33,969 bases of DNA from an uncultured Bacillota bacterium (lineage in GTDB: Bacteria; Bacillota_I; Bacilli_A; ML615J-28; CAG-313), in contig CAMODB010000010.1 in the NCBI GenBank assembly GCA_946611195.1, positions 1 through 33,969 on the forward strand, in the 5' to 3' direction. The translations under genes were made by a program, and so were the position numbers. Of this stretch, positions 18,392-33,969 are shown piece by piece (the first letter of the stretch is position 1; each line of letters opens with the position of its first letter). Under the pieces are notes generated by a model. That model had not been told where the DNA came from. It was given only the letters and a program-made list of their open reading frames with translations, and ran no database searches.

Positions 18392-18586
18392 ATGATATTT
18401 AAAATATTAGTAGTTTTAATCCCTTTAGCTTTATTTGTGGTGACCTTATTTATTAATCATAAGATTACACCACCAGAATATAGTAAAGAAGAAGATGAAA
18501 TTTGCGCTTCTTGTAGTAATGTTTTATGTAAAAGAAGCCGAAAAGAAACAAAGAATTGTGAGGAATTAAATGATGAACAAAAGTAA
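18392..18586 (+). CDS. Small Cys-rich membrane protein, function unknown
   Basis: A 64-residue protein I do not recognise. One membrane helix spans about 4-22. A short hydrophilic tail then carries C38-x2-C41-x4-C46-x9-C56, four Cys suited to bind a metal or Fe-S cluster. It begins 2 bases after aspS and overlaps comEB by 17 bases, so it belongs to the operon, although there is no strong ribosome site. Size and layout (one helix then Cys-rich tail) recall the NqrM/DUF539 type of Fe-delivery protein, but no diagnostic sequence match is claimed. Confidence 0.72.
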   Translation: MIFKILVVLIPLALFVVTLFINHKITPPEYSKEEDEICASCSNVLCKRSRKETKNCEELNDEQK

Positions 18587-28844: not shown

Positions 28845-30140
28845 ATGTTTAATAAAATACATGGACGTCATATTAATGGTCATAAGCATATGTCAACTTC
28901 TGAACCAATTATGAATTATCTTGATCCAGATTTTGTTTATTTTCCTTTAAATGTTGGTAATGCCACTTATCAAAAATTAGTAGAAGTTGGTTCTAAAGTA
29001 TTAATGGGCCAACAAATATTAATTAGAGAAGGACGTTTTGGTCATCCTATTTGTTCAAGCGTAAGTGGAACTGTAACTGCAATAAAGAAACAATGGCATT
29101 CATCTGGTAAAATGGTTGAAATGTTAGAAATTGCGAATGATCATCAAGATTTAGCATGTTATGTTAAAACAAATGACGAACAATTAACAAGAGATATTAT
29201 AATTGATAAGGTTAAAAATGCTGGTATTGTAGGTTTAGGAGGCGCTGGCTTCCCTACTTATGTTAAATATCTTCCATCACAACCTGCTGATTATGTAATT
29301 ATAAATGCGGCAGAATGTGAACCTTATTTAACTTGTGATTATTTAAGTATAATTGAAGAAACAGATCGTTTTATTCGTGGTATTCACTATATTATGATTG
29401 CAAATTCTAGTAAAAAAGGTGTTATTGCGATAAAAAAATCAAAATTAGAAGCTATTGATATTTTGAAAAAAGCTTTAGATGGTATTGATGATATTTCATT
29501 ATTCTTACTTGATGATGTATATCCTGCTGGTTGGGAAAAATATATAGTTGAAAAAGTAACGAAGAAATCATATACTGGTCTTCCAAGAGAAGCAGGTGCT
29601 GTTGTTAATAATGTTCAAACAGCGATTGCGGTTTGTGATGCGGTTGAAGAAAATAAACCATTAATCGATCGTGTTGTTACTATTACTGGTGAAGGTATTA
29701 AGAATCCTCGTAATTATCGAGTAAAGATTGGTACGAAAATTACACCATTACTTACTTTAAGTGGTGGTTATGTGGATGATTTAGATGAAGCATACTGCAT
29801 TTGTGGTGGACCAATGACAGGAAGAAGTTTATTCTTTGATGATTTAGTCATTACTTCGAATGTTGGTGGTATCATTGTTAAACCTAAACCAAAGACTTTA
29901 GAAGTTAATGAATGTATTGGCTGTGGTAAATGTAGCGAAAATTGTCCAGCTTTCCTTACCCCAACAGCTATTAAACAAGCATATTTAAGTAAAAATATTA
30001 ATGATTTAAATGCATTAAATGCTAGTCGTTGTGTACAATGTGGCTTATGTTCTTATGTTTGTCCATCAAGAGTTGAAATGACTGATTATATGGCTAAGGC
30101 AAAAGAAATGCTTATGAAAGCCAATGCTAATAAGAAATAA
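28845..30140 (+). CDS. rnfC: Rnf complex subunit RnfC
   Basis: A 431-residue NADH-side subunit of the ion-pumping ferredoxin:NAD+ oxidoreductase. The N-terminal barrel domain is followed by the NAD/FMN-binding GIVGLGGAGFPTYVK and INAAECEPYLTCD. Two 4Fe-4S sites are complete: C357, C360, C363, C367 and C396, C399, C402, C406. The ATG at 28845 with GGAGG six bases upstream is preferred over the in-frame codon at 28833. First gene of rnfCDGEAB. It lacks the long C-terminal extension found in some proteobacterial RnfC. Confidence 0.96.
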   Translation: MFNKIHGRHINGHKHMSTSEPIMNYLDPDFVYFPLNVGNATYQKLVEVGSKVLMGQQILIREGRFGHPICSSVSGTVTAIKKQWHSSGKMVEMLEIANDHQDLACYVKTNDEQLTRDIIIDKVKNAGIVGLGGAGFPTYVKYLPSQPADYVIINAAECEPYLTCDYLSIIEETDRFIRGIHYIMIANSSKKGVIAIKKSKLEAIDILKKALDGIDDISLFLLDDVYPAGWEKYIVEKVTKKSYTGLPREAGAVVNNVQTAIAVCDAVEENKPLIDRVVTITGEGIKNPRNYRVKIGTKITPLLTLSGGYVDDLDEAYCICGGPMTGRSLFFDDLVITSNVGGIIVKPKPKTLEVNECIGCGKCSENCPAFLTPTAIKQAYLSKNINDLNALNASRCVQCGLCSYVCPSRVEMTDYMAKAKEMLMKANANKK

Positions 30141-30154
30141 GGAGAAGAAGTAAA

Positions 30155-31390
30155 ATGCGTAAGTTTTCTTTAGAAAAAGGTCCTTATCTTCGTAGTGTCG
30201 ATGAAAAAATAATTTCGACACAACGAATGATGTTCGACGTTATCATTGCTTTACTCCCTATCGTTTTATTTGGTTGGGTTATTAATGGTATTTTACCTTA
30301 CTTTAAACATCTTAATAATGTTAATTTCTTTAATATGTTACAACCATTATTAAATGTCATTGTTGGTGTATTATCTAGTGTTGTCTTTGAAGCTTTATAT
30401 TTTCTAGCTTTTAAAAAAGCAGGAAACATTAAAAATGCTTTAATAGAAGCTAAAAATAGTTTTGCGGCAATTCCTGGTTTAATTATTGCTTTAATTTTAC
30501 CAGCAAGAGTAGATATGTATGTTATTGTTTTTGCTTGCTTCTTTGCAAATATCATCTTTAAGATGTTATTTGGTGGTTTAGGACATAACATCTTCAATCC
30601 TGCTTTAATTGGTTATGCTATTGCTGCTACCGTATTCTCTTCACAAATTGCTACCGCTTTAGAAATCCAAAATGGTGTTTTTAATTCACTACTTAATATT
30701 ACAACTACTGCTACACCATTAAGTATATTATCAGCAGAATCATCTTCAGTAGGATCATTTTTAGTTAATAAAACTGTTTTAGTAGATAATTATGGTGGTT
30801 TAATTAATTTATTCCTTGGTCTTAAGAATGGTGCCTTAGGTGAAACAAGTGGTTTATTATGTCTTGTTGGTTTTGTTTATTTAGTAGCAAGAAAAGTTAT
30901 TAATTGGCGAGTTCCTGTTTTCTATGTTGGTACTTTCTTTATCATTTGCTGGATTATTGGTATCGTTAATCATATTGAAGGCCCAGTTTTAGGAATTTGG
31001 TTCCCAACATTTAATATTTTAACTGGTGGCTTATTATTTGGTAGTATCTTTATGGCAACAGAACCTGTTACAACGCCAAAGAGTCCTAATGGTAAGATTA
31101 TATTTGCGGTATTCTGTGCAGTCTTTACAGCATTATTCCGTTTCATTGGTATGTTTAATGAAGGTGTTTGTACAGCAATTTTATTTGTATGTTTATTTAC
31201 ACCAATTATTGATAAATTTGCCGCAAAGAATCGTGGACCAATTATTAGTTCGAAAATGGTTCTACGTTATTTAGTTGTTTTTGTATTATTTGTTTTAATT
31301 ACTTTATATACAGTTTATAAGACTACTTCAATTCCTAAAGATGATTTAGCAGTTATTGAAATAGTTAATACAATTGGAGGTGGCTTTTAA
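30155..31390 (+). CDS. rnfD: Rnf complex membrane subunit RnfD
   Basis: A 411-residue NqrB/RnfD protein with about ten membrane helices. GLGHNIFNPALIGYA is a family signature. The flavin-attachment Thr would be T187 in NITTTATPLS. Compared with the ApbE motif D-x-x-S/T-G-A-T, the Asp is Asn181 and the Gly is Thr185. AAGGAGAAG precedes the ATG. The stop overlaps the rnfG start by one base. RnfD carries a covalent FMN in other bacteria and takes part in ion movement across the membrane. Confidence 0.95.
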   Translation: MRKFSLEKGPYLRSVDEKIISTQRMMFDVIIALLPIVLFGWVINGILPYFKHLNNVNFFNMLQPLLNVIVGVLSSVVFEALYFLAFKKAGNIKNALIEAKNSFAAIPGLIIALILPARVDMYVIVFACFFANIIFKMLFGGLGHNIFNPALIGYAIAATVFSSQIATALEIQNGVFNSLLNITTTATPLSILSAESSSVGSFLVNKTVLVDNYGGLINLFLGLKNGALGETSGLLCLVGFVYLVARKVINWRVPVFYVGTFFIICWIIGIVNHIEGPVLGIWFPTFNILTGGLLFGSIFMATEPVTTPKSPNGKIIFAVFCAVFTALFRFIGMFNEGVCTAILFVCLFTPIIDKFAAKNRGPIISSKMVLRYLVVFVLFVLITLYTVYKTTSIPKDDLAVIEIVNTIGGGF

Positions 31391-32139
31391 TGGAAAAAGA
31401 AGTTAACTTCAAGAAAAATCGTAAACCTTTACCTAATTTTATTCTCTTACCACTCTTTTTAGTTGTTCTTGGAACTATTTGTGCTTTCCTTTTATCTTTA
31501 ACTAATCAATTGACTAGTGAAGCTATCAAAGAAAATGAACAAAAAGCAGCTAATGAAGAATTAAAAGAAGTAAGAGAAATGTTAAATAATCGGTTTGGCA
31601 TGGAAATTGTTAATAATATTCATGACGATGATGATAATGTTACAGAAAGTAATGAACATGTTAAAGTTGCAAATGAATCTTTAAGAGAAATTGATAATAA
31701 ATTAAGATCAATTAATCTTATCAGTGGTCGGGGAACTGATAACTGTTTATATGAAGTAAATGGTGAATTTTATTGTCGTGATTTAGATGATAATGCCAAT
31801 TATATTGCATTTAGAGTTTTACATACGAATAATTTCACAACTGTAACAACTATTGTCTTAATTAATATCGATGATTTAACAATTAAACATGTACAAGTAA
31901 TTGGTAAAGCTACTACTTTAGGAGCTTCCAAAGATAATTTATTTATCAATAAGAATGATGAATGGAATGTAATTGGTCAAACTGAAGATACATATCGCAA
32001 TGAATTCTCTATTATTAGTGGATCAACTTATTCATCAAAATCAGTTAAAAATTCCATTCGGTATGCTTATAATCAATTGAAAGAAATTGGTGATGGTCTC
32101 TTAGATGAAATTAAAAAGTTAGGAGGTGAGATTCAATGA
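31390..32139 (+). CDS. rnfG: Rnf complex FMN-binding subunit RnfG
   Basis: A 249-residue subunit with one N-terminal membrane helix (about 16-38) and an extracellular FMN-binding domain. The covalent-FMN motif is SIISGSTYSS with T213 as acceptor; Asp of the usual D-x-x-S-G-A-T is Ser207 and the Ala is Ser212. A stretch around 70-115 contains an acidic HDDDDN run and looks inserted. GGAGGTGG in the last rnfD codons serves as ribosome site, and the gene overlaps rnfE by four bases. Confidence 0.92.
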   Translation: MEKEVNFKKNRKPLPNFILLPLFLVVLGTICAFLLSLTNQLTSEAIKENEQKAANEELKEVREMLNNRFGMEIVNNIHDDDDNVTESNEHVKVANESLREIDNKLRSINLISGRGTDNCLYEVNGEFYCRDLDDNANYIAFRVLHTNNFTTVTTIVLINIDDLTIKHVQVIGKATTLGASKDNLFINKNDEWNVIGQTEDTYRNEFSIISGSTYSSKSVKNSIRYAYNQLKEIGDGLLDEIKKLGGEIQ

Positions 32140-32768
32140 AAAAATCTCAAATCTTCCTAAATGGTATAATTAAAGAAAATCCAACCTTAGTTATGTTAAT
32201 TGGTATGTGTCCTACTATTGCGATAACAACCTCAATTTCTAATGCTATAGGTATGGGTGCCTGTGTAATCTTTGTATTATTCTTTTCTAATTTAATTATA
32301 TCTTTAATTAGACATATTGTTCCTGATGAAATCAGAATTCCTGTCTTTATTGTGGTTATTGCAACCTTAGTTACAATTACCCAATTAATTCTAAAAGCAT
32401 ATTTCCCATCTTTAGATGCTTCATTAGGTGAATTCGTTGCCTTAATTGTTGTAAACTGTATTATTCTAGGCCGTGCTGAAGCCTTTGCTTCTAAAAATGG
32501 TCCGGTTTCTTCAATGCTCGATGCTCTTGGTATGGGTTTAGGCTTTACTTTAGCAATTTCTGTTATTTCTTTAATTCGTCAATTCTTAGCTGATGTTTTA
32601 GGACTTGCTATGTTCGCATCACCAGTTGGTGGTTTTATCATTTTAGGTCTTGTCATCGGTATTTTCCAATCAGTTAAATTATTAATTGAAAAGAAGAATG
32701 AATTAAAGAAGAAAGAAAAGGAAAAGAAAGAAAAAGAAGTATCTGTTAATAAGGAGGCTGTTAAATAA
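32136..32768 (+). CDS. rnfE: Rnf complex membrane subunit RnfE
   Basis: A 210-residue NqrD/RnfE protein with six membrane helices. C25 (MCPTIAIT) and C108 (VNCIILGRAEAFA) are the conserved Cys that, with two from RnfA, hold the intramembrane iron centre. The last 25 residues are almost all Lys and Glu, a charged tail on the cytoplasmic side. A very strong AGGAGGTGAG site lies within the end of rnfG. It pairs with its homologue RnfA, which follows. Confidence 0.95.
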   Translation: MKKSQIFLNGIIKENPTLVMLIGMCPTIAITTSISNAIGMGACVIFVLFFSNLIISLIRHIVPDEIRIPVFIVVIATLVTITQLILKAYFPSLDASLGEFVALIVVNCIILGRAEAFASKNGPVSSMLDALGMGLGFTLAISVISLIRQFLADVLGLAMFASPVGGFIILGLVIGIFQSVKLLIEKKNELKKKEKEKKEKEVSVNKEAVK

Positions 32769-33343
32769 TGAAAGATTTAATGATTATTGCATTTGCGGCC
32801 TTTTTAACAGAAAATGTTATTTTAGGACGTACTTGGGGTATTTGTCCATTCTTAGGTGTTTCTAAAAAACAAAGTAATGCGATAGGTATGGGTGTTGCGG
32901 TAACTTTCGTTATCGTTATTACTACAGCTGTTACTTGGGCTTTACATCGTTATATCTTAGCTCGCTTTGATATGGAATATTTACAAATATTAGTATTTAT
33001 TTTAGTTATTGCCAGCTTAGTTCAAATGATTGAAATCTTCTTAAAGAAAGTATCACCTACATTATATAAAGCATTAGGTATTTATCTTCCTTTAATTACT
33101 ACTAACTGTGCAGTATTAGGGGTTGCTAATGCCGTTATTGATTTAGGTTATGGTTTCCCTGAAATGTTAGTCTTTTCTCTATTTAGTGGTCTTGGATTCC
33201 TCTTTGTTATGTGGATTTTCTCGGGCTTAAGAGAAAAAGTTGAAACTGCACCTGTTCCTGAAGGCTTTAAAGGTTTCCCTATTGCGTTAATAGCAGCAGC
33301 TGCTTTAGCATTAATTTTCTCAAGATTAGGAGGAATTATCTAA
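32768..33343 (+). CDS. rnfA: Rnf complex membrane subunit RnfA
   Basis: A 191-residue NqrE/RnfA protein with six membrane helices, homologous to RnfE but inserted with the opposite topology in characterised complexes. C26 (WGICPFLGVS) and C114 (TTNCAVLGVA) are the partner Cys for the iron centre. AAGGAGG precedes the ATG, which overlaps the rnfE stop by one base. Length and motifs are normal. Confidence 0.96.
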   Translation: MKDLMIIAFAAFLTENVILGRTWGICPFLGVSKKQSNAIGMGVAVTFVIVITTAVTWALHRYILARFDMEYLQILVFILVIASLVQMIEIFLKKVSPTLYKALGIYLPLITTNCAVLGVANAVIDLGYGFPEMLVFSLFSGLGFLFVMWIFSGLREKVETAPVPEGFKGFPIALIAAAALALIFSRLGGII

Positions 33344-33648
33344 TGGATTTTGAAAAAATATTGTGGGCAGTCCTTGTTCTAGTGGTTTTAGGACTTGTAT
33401 TAGGCTTACTTATTGCAGTTGTCAGTAAAGTATTTAAGGTTGAAGAAGATACAAGAGTTGAAGAAGTTTTAGCTTTATTACCAGGTGCTAATTGTGGAGG
33501 CTGTGGTTTCCCTGGCTGTTCAGGTATGGCTGACGCAATAGTTAATAACGGTGCTAATCCTCGTAATTGTAAACCTATTAAACAAGAAAAAGTTGATGAA
33601 ATTAATTCGTTAATGACAAAATTTAACGAAGATCAACAAAATCAATAA
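33343..33648 (+). CDS. rnfB: Short RnfB lacking the ferredoxin domain
   Basis: A 101-residue RnfB. An N-terminal membrane helix (about 7-28) is followed by the RnfB-type Fe-S module with C51, C54, C59 and C76 (NCGGCGFPGCSG and RNCKP). The family normally continues with a ferredoxin-like part of two or more 4Fe-4S clusters, giving about 190-330 residues. Here a TAA ends the frame and a terminator follows 5 bases later. No ferredoxin-like coding remnant is seen in any frame before rpoD. It starts at the rnfA stop (taATG) after TTAGGAGG. It is the presumed electron-entry subunit, so its shortness matters. Confidence 0.93.
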   Translation: MDFEKILWAVLVLVVLGLVLGLLIAVVSKVFKVEEDTRVEEVLALLPGANCGGCGFPGCSGMADAIVNNGANPRNCKPIKQEKVDEINSLMTKFNEDQQNQ

Positions 33649-33653
33649 ATAAT

Positions 33654-33686
33654 ACAAGACGCAAATTTATCCTTGCGTCTTGTTTA
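33654..33686 (+). terminator. Terminator of the rnf operon
   Basis: ACAAGACGCAA (33654-33664) and TTGCGTCTTGT (33673-33683), 11 base pairs with an 8-base loop, followed by TTTAATT (T-run overlapping the arm). Confidence 0.82.
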
Positions 33687-33761: not shown

Positions 33762-33969
33762 ATGATTAACGAAGAAGAAATTAAACCTCAATTAGAACAA
33801 TTAAAAGAAAAAAGTAATAAAAATGGTTTTGTTACTTTAAGTCAAATTGAAGAATTATTTCCTGATCGTAGTGAAGAATTCATGGATGAATTAATTGATT
33901 TCCTTAATGAAAAAGGAATTGAAATTAATACTGATGAAGATGATATTTTAATGGATAATATCGCAATGA
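33762..33969 (+). CDS. rpoD: RNA polymerase primary sigma factor RpoD, N-terminal part (3' end outside the window)
   Basis: An open frame of 69 codons runs to the window end. The peptide, starting MINEEEIKPQLEQLKEK and with GFVTLSQIEELF and FLNEKGIEI, fits sigma-70 region 1.1 of Firmicute RpoD, which keeps free sigma from binding DNA. GAAGGAGAG lies 9 bases upstream of the ATG. In Bacillus rpoD follows dnaG; here it follows the rnf operon. The assignment rests on region 1.1 only, so it is good but not complete. Confidence 0.8.
   Translation, partial: MINEEEIKPQLEQLKEKSNKNGFVTLSQIEELFPDRSEEFMDELIDFLNEKGIEINTDEDDILMDNIAM

Follow-up and report, generated by a model that had tools for sequence, protein, structure and literature searches.

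A single-module RnfB as the normal form in a class of mostly uncultured bacteria, and a small cysteine-bearing membrane protein that accompanies it

The stretch of DNA considered here, hereafter referred to as the window, comprises all 33,969 nucleotides of contig CAMODB010000010.1 (assembly GCA_946611195.1) from an uncultured Bacillota bacterium. It carries an rnf operon, rnfCDGEAB, at positions 28845-33648 of the + strand, the RnfB subunit of which is reduced to a membrane anchor and a single Fe-S module. This short RnfB is the inherited, maintained and normal form of the subunit across the class to which the organism belongs. It is highly probable that the protein is a functional, minimal RnfB of an old, class-wide Rnf lineage and that it is reduced directly by soluble ferredoxin. 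The more interesting lead is a small membrane protein with a cysteine-bearing tail, designated here protein X, which follows this type of Rnf from genome to genome and is proposed to be an Rnf assembly factor or an extra subunit. The initial annotation of the window, which addressed the short RnfB and missed the small protein, is partly supported by the analysis presented here.

The rnfB gene (33343-33648, + strand), assigned on the basis of its open reading frame (ORF), profile matches and predicted fold, encodes a protein of 101 residues and 10.9 kDa. Its ATG overlaps the stop codon of rnfA and is preceded by AGGAGG. There are exactly four cysteines, Cys 51, Cys 54, Cys 59 and Cys 76, with the spacing C-x2-C-x4-C-x16-C. 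In Pfam, PF04060 matches residues 46-78 with an E-value of 2.5e-12 and no Fer4 family is matched, which agrees with the initial description of an anchor bearing one Fe-S module. The protein passes the TIGR01944 (rnfB) model at 71.7 bits versus a cut-off of 68.7 bits, the match being confined to model positions 3-92 of 190, and thus the C-terminal ferredoxin half is missing. The transmembrane helix and four-cysteine PF04060 module at the N-terminus, and the location of the gene beside rnfA in an rnf operon, are those of an RnfB, whereas the C-terminal Fer4 domain or domains of most described RnfBs are absent. The RnfB from Thermotoga maritima also lacks Fer4, and hence this domain is not obligatory for an RnfB.

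A model of the subunit was predicted with AlphaFold2 from an alignment of the window RnfB with the matched segments of 34 full-length RnfBs. The predicted fold, with a mean pLDDT (predicted local distance difference test) of 89, is characterized by a transmembrane helix extending from approximately residue 3 to residue 30, a compact Fe-S module, and a C-terminal helix formed by residues 81-99. The best match among solved structures is the RnfB from Acetobacterium woodii (9eri_B, E-value 7.8e-4). The next matches are to the [4Fe-4S] N-terminal domain of CFeSP, with root-mean-square deviations of 1.3-1.7 Å over ∼50 residues. The FdI module from Clostridium tetanomorphum was compared to this same domain (PMC9588780).

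Given that the window derives from a draft genome that is 65% complete, the possibility was considered that rnfB had been shortened, either by an error of assembly or by a mutation of recent date. An intrinsic terminator (33654-33683, + strand; an 11-pair hairpin with a folding z of -6.1) directly follows the stop codon and closes the operon. It is succeeded by the start of rpoD (33762-33969, + strand; Sigma70 region 1.1, Sigma70_r1_1), which is cut by the contig end. No ferredoxin remnant lies between rnfB and the contig end. Within 2.5 kb after rnfB in 40 loci, no ferredoxin gene or remnant was observed, the two exceptions being a gene for an unrelated Fe-S enzyme and a chance frame, each in a single locus. 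The congener G001 (95% complete) contains a single RnfB of 99 residues that is 77% identical to that of the window, and RnfBs of ∼100 residues occur throughout the class. (Genomes, loci, genera and families of the sample are labeled G, L, g and f, respectively, followed by a number.) On the basis of the independent genomes and the terminator an assembly error or frameshift was rejected, in keeping with the initial annotation, and a truncated gene is extremely improbable. The 0.98 Mb genome of the window displays one PF04060 match. The absence of a second, full-length rnfB accordingly holds for G001 and for the 65% of the window's genome that was available.

An RnfB match was found in 41 of 60 relatives. 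The matched ORFs encode ∼90-120 residues, and the short RnfBs of relatives across the class contain 89-117 residues. Exceptions are the five g2 members and a small number of weak matches that fall in unrelated frames of much greater length. In an alignment of 36 sequences the pattern LP-x2-NCG-x-C-x4-C-x16-C is invariant. Class-wide, 212 of 395 genomes contain a match, and the open frames among the matches listed span, with very few exceptions, 92-155 residues from stop to stop. Genomes without an RnfB also lack RnfA. Complete RnfBs from 80 loci of a genome collection (Clostridia, Bacteroidales, Desulfobacterota and Synergistota) contain 258-690 residues, and the few shorter ones among these loci run off a contig end. 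In a maximum-likelihood tree calculated with RnfA, RnfE and RnfD, all of the sampled short-RnfB operons (35/35) fall together in one clade, set off by a branch with an SH-aLRT (Shimodaira-Hasegawa-like approximate likelihood ratio test) support of 100, corresponding to one change of state. The short RnfB thus has a single origin within the sample. The short form is not a peculiarity of one genome but a trait of the class.

Genus g2 (L140-L144) is a sister genus within the same family. Its RnfBs contain 267-277 residues in complete copies and display Fer4 matches, its RnfA, RnfE and RnfD fall inside the Clostridia-type group, and protein X was not found in it. Since the full-length RnfB of g2 sits among Clostridia-type operons it was probably acquired, which suggests that the genus replaced its native Rnf by horizontal transfer. 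Some genomes of the class contain more than one rnf operon, namely G053 (L135, L136 and L137), G044 (L129 and L145) and G056 (L132 and L133), and RnfB is short in every one of these two or three copies. In one group of operons from such genomes RnfC is much more divergent, or none was recognized.

The remaining subunits encoded in the window are full length, as stated in the initial annotation, and their cofactor residues are intact as well. All of their genes are on the + strand. RnfC (28845-30140, with its ATG at 28845 in a longer ORF from 28833) contains the NADH/flavin mononucleotide (FMN) motif GLGGAGFPT and two [4Fe-4S] motifs of the form CxxCxxCxxxC. RnfD (30155-31390) carries the FMN attachment motif ATPL with Thr 187, and RnfG (31390-32139) an FMN_bind domain with the flavinylation motif SGST and Thr 213. 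The [2Fe-2S] ligands are provided by Cys 25 and Cys 108 of RnfE (32136-32768) and Cys 26 and Cys 114 of RnfA (32768-33343). The operon therefore encodes what is expected of a functional Rnf, namely six subunits with the Fe-S and FMN motifs of RnfC, the threonines of RnfD and RnfG, and the four cysteines of RnfA and RnfE. The genome also displays three matches to the flavin transferase ApbE. Fusion of the ferredoxin domain to another Rnf subunit was rejected, as no Fer4 match lies outside RnfC among the window subunits and RnfC has just its usual two clusters.

Some relatives (loci L113, L115, L118-L120, L124, L130 and L151) contain enlarged or additional flavoprotein parts. These comprise ORFs of 560-760 residues that match RnfD and, in G008 and G007, RnfG-like ORFs with two FMN_bind matches; the window RnfD is plain and its RnfG has a single FMN_bind. 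Such parts possibly resemble the multi-flavinylated RnfGs described in PMC8238504.

With respect to the electron donor, pyruvate:ferredoxin oxidoreductase (PFOR) was found in 20 of 20 genomes examined, including that of the window, where it contains 1193 residues. In G001, G007, G009, G016, G019, G021 and G036 a 55-residue 2[4Fe-4S] ferredoxin is encoded downstream of rnfB at a distance of 5.5-10 kb (∼6 kb in G001), and a conserved stand-alone ferredoxin, one of the options raised initially, is thus present in related genomes. The block in which it resides reads rpoD, glyS, dnaG, trmK-like, DUF34-like, ferredoxin, plsY-like and parE-like, the gene names having been assigned by eye. A PF13370-type ferredoxin was observed in just one of 18 genomes and was rejected as a candidate. 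Elsewhere in the window's genome, L169:1075-5236 (G000:C5) contains consecutive NuoE-like, NuoF-like and NuoG/HydA-like ORFs, again named by eye; the cluster resembles a multimeric hydrogenase of the soluble type, which could either provide or consume ferredoxin.

In the proposed mechanism, the transmembrane helix of RnfB would anchor one [4Fe-4S] module, the counterpart of the mobile FdI module from C. tetanomorphum or the B8 module from A. woodii. Soluble ferredoxin, reduced by PFOR and possibly also by a hydrogenase complex, would transfer its electrons directly to this module with no polyferredoxin relay. The module would then swing to the [2Fe-2S] cluster of RnfA/E, from which electrons would pass via the flavins of RnfG and RnfD to RnfC and NAD+, coupled to the export of Na+ (or H+). 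The simplest route, and the most likely one, is for ferredoxin to dock directly on this module. The docking site, the electron route in this organism and the coupling ion are those that we infer, and the activity with ferredoxin is carried over by analogy from T. maritima.

Several observations weigh against this scheme. The same 55-residue ferredoxin gene is present in G002-G004 and G006, all of which lack rnfGEAB, and thus it encodes a general rather than an Rnf-dedicated ferredoxin. Indeed, an Rnf-dedicated ferredoxin was rejected as a candidate, given that the gene persists without rnfGEAB and its linkage is that of a housekeeping gene block. Completeness of the window's genome is 65%, and the contig breaks off within rpoD; a second rnfB or a stand-alone ferredoxin of its own could lie outside. 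Finally, protein X might itself pass electrons on, and RnfB would then not be the sole entry point. Another possibility is that the single module has a different donor, either a flavodoxin or, by direct docking, the Fer4 domains that belong to PFOR or to a hydrogenase complex. Both PFOR and the hydrogenase-like cluster are encoded in the window's genome, in the available part of which no stand-alone ferredoxin was detected, the corresponding stretch falling past the contig end. Such a donor is nonetheless unlikely in view of the 55-residue ferredoxin in close and distant relatives and of the T. maritima complex, which takes clostridial ferredoxin (PMC7414866). Direct reduction by soluble ferredoxin remains the preferred reading.

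Protein X was first recognized as an ORF of ∼55-80 residues between rnfA and rnfB in ∼10 fetched loci, encoding a transmembrane helix, the motif N-K-K/R-T-x-x-P and then CxxCxxxxC. A profile of this intervening ORF matched positions 18392-18586 of the window (+ strand) with an E-value of 2.6e-8. The window protein contains 64 residues, with a transmembrane helix, the motif CASCSNVLC and a later cysteine, and its gene, unlinked from rnf, is positioned between aspS and a dCMP-deaminase-like gene. G001, G007-G009 and most members of the sister family f2 share this order of aspS, X and dCMP-deaminase. The start of rnfB is preceded by X on the same strand, 116 bp or less upstream, in at least 69 genomes. 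Overall the protein contains 60-90 residues with three invariant cysteines (CxxCxxxxC) and often a fourth. The ratio of nonsynonymous to synonymous substitution rates (dN/dS) between two close copies is ∼0.08. The K/R-rich residues immediately following the helix suggest that the cysteine tail is cytoplasmic, as in RnfB.

At an E-value of 1e-6 or less, X was found in 32 of the 36 genomes with a short RnfB, in none of the five with a full-length RnfB, and in one of the 19 without RnfB. Class-wide, 181 of the 195 genomes that display a strong RnfB match (g2 excluded) contain it, versus 5 of 200 others (Fisher p ∼1e-87, a value that ignores shared ancestry). In six genera (g1, g9, g32, g60, g87 and g101) some species have both X and RnfB and others neither, which is evidence for a tie between the two that is less open to the objection of shared ancestry. 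In those genera where X and RnfB do not match (g15-g17, g19, g85, g102 and g116), the genomes concerned are for the most part incomplete.

No Pfam or NCBIfam family is matched by X above its cut-off, and no solved chain matches it. Within Pfam, X comes closest to FeoB_associated (PF12669), with E-values of 0.0012-0.0053 and a score below the cut-off (12.6 versus 27 bits for the member shown). On balance, X is probably a seventh, previously unrecognized Rnf component, gained and lost with the single-module-RnfB Rnf, that would either mature the Fe-S clusters or complete the ferredoxin entry site; as part of the same claim, X, which in many families is encoded directly before rnfB, would have moved to the aspS/dCMP-deaminase operon in the order to which the window belongs.

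There is a substantial chance, somewhat short of even, that X is specifically an assembly factor serving the cluster of RnfA/E or of RnfB, and such a role is compatible with direct reduction of RnfB by ferredoxin. The comparison is with NqrM (DUF539), a protein required for insertion of the intramembrane [2Fe-2S] cluster into Na+-NQR (PMC12174285). Both are small, membrane-anchored, cysteine-bearing proteins tied to an RNF/NQR-type complex, yet they have no detectable Pfam sequence match and their hosts differ. Indeed, PF04400/NqrM is not among the Pfam matches listed for 27 members of X at E-values up to 0.5, and membership of X in the NqrM family was rejected. In favor of an assembly role are the co-occurrence and linkage with rnfB, the three-cysteine motif, which fits transient cluster or iron binding, and the absence of X from G002-G004, which have lost rnfGEAB. 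In addition to the missing NqrM match, it must be noted that X was not found near the full-length-RnfB operons of Clostridia and others, a search made only within 8 kb on either side of rnfB and not covering T. maritima.

The same distribution, the position directly upstream of rnfB and the predicted cytoplasmic tail could also be accommodated if X complements the short RnfB as a structural subunit, that is, as a second membrane-anchored cytoplasmic Fe-S site between ferredoxin and either RnfB or RnfA/E. Just three cysteines are invariant, however, the fourth shifting in place or missing; the gene is unlinked from rnf in the window's order; and the T. maritima complex for which activity was reported is described as having just the usual six subunits. 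This role is rather doubtful, and an NqrM-like assembly role is rated somewhat above that of an extra electron-transfer subunit.

Three members of the window's genus retain only part of the operon. In G004 (L172:11218-13742), G003 (L173:10547-13065) and G002 (L174:695-3213), rnfC and rnfD are located directly before rpoD and encode intact proteins of 435 and 400-402 residues, respectively, and rnfG, rnfE, rnfA and rnfB have been lost. Searches of these genomes gave no match to RnfA, FMN_bind or ApbE, and the RnfD motif ATPL, which contains the FMN threonine, is changed to QAPV or SAPI. Between the species, dN/dS is ∼0.07-0.19 for the two genes, which are nonetheless held under purifying selection. 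On the basis of these sequences, G002-G004 appear to keep a flavinylation-free RnfCD pair.

The minimal RnfB described for T. maritima is thus standard in a large class of bacteria with small genomes, most of them uncultured. It follows that the polyferredoxin relay is dispensable for Rnf, with ferredoxin probably docking on one mobile module. For structural studies, the class offers simple Rnf complexes in a naturally occurring series. In that X follows the single-module Rnf almost one-to-one and its gene should be easy to delete, a missing assembly or electron-entry factor becomes directly testable.

In its N-terminal half the window RnfB resembles the E. coli/Azotobacter-type RnfB (RsxB; ∼174-192 residues, with FdI and two Fer4 clusters), but the Fer4 pair is missing. 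With the Rnf complexes from A. woodii and C. tetanomorphum (9eri and 7zc6) it shares the transmembrane helix and FdI/B8 module, and the cofactor residues of RnfA/E, RnfC, RnfD and RnfG are the same. In A. woodii, the B8 module shuttles to the [2Fe-2S] cluster of RnfA/E, mutation of its ligands being among the tests of this route (PMC11889175). The RnfBs from these two organisms contain eight and ∼6 [4Fe-4S] clusters, respectively, in which the C-terminal polyferredoxin docks ferredoxin and contacts RnfC; this region is absent in the window protein. The closest counterpart is the Rnf from T. maritima, with the same gene order, rnfCDGEAB, and an RnfB of 10.56 kDa for which a single [4Fe-4S] center is predicted (Kuhns et al. 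2020, PMC7414866), a shortened form consisting of FdI only (PMC9588780). The two RnfBs, at ∼10.5-10.9 kDa, are both reduced to the FdI module, that of the window containing four cysteines only; T. maritima belongs to a different phylum, and the likeness is one of published size and cluster count. The purified T. maritima complex accepted ferredoxin from C. pasteurianum and transported Na+ (PMC7414866). The minimal Rnf variant proposed in the initial annotation is therefore real, although not new as a kind. No literature was found on a short RnfB in this class or on a small gene between rnfA and rnfB, and what is new here is protein X, together with the spread of a minimal form already described for T. 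maritima.
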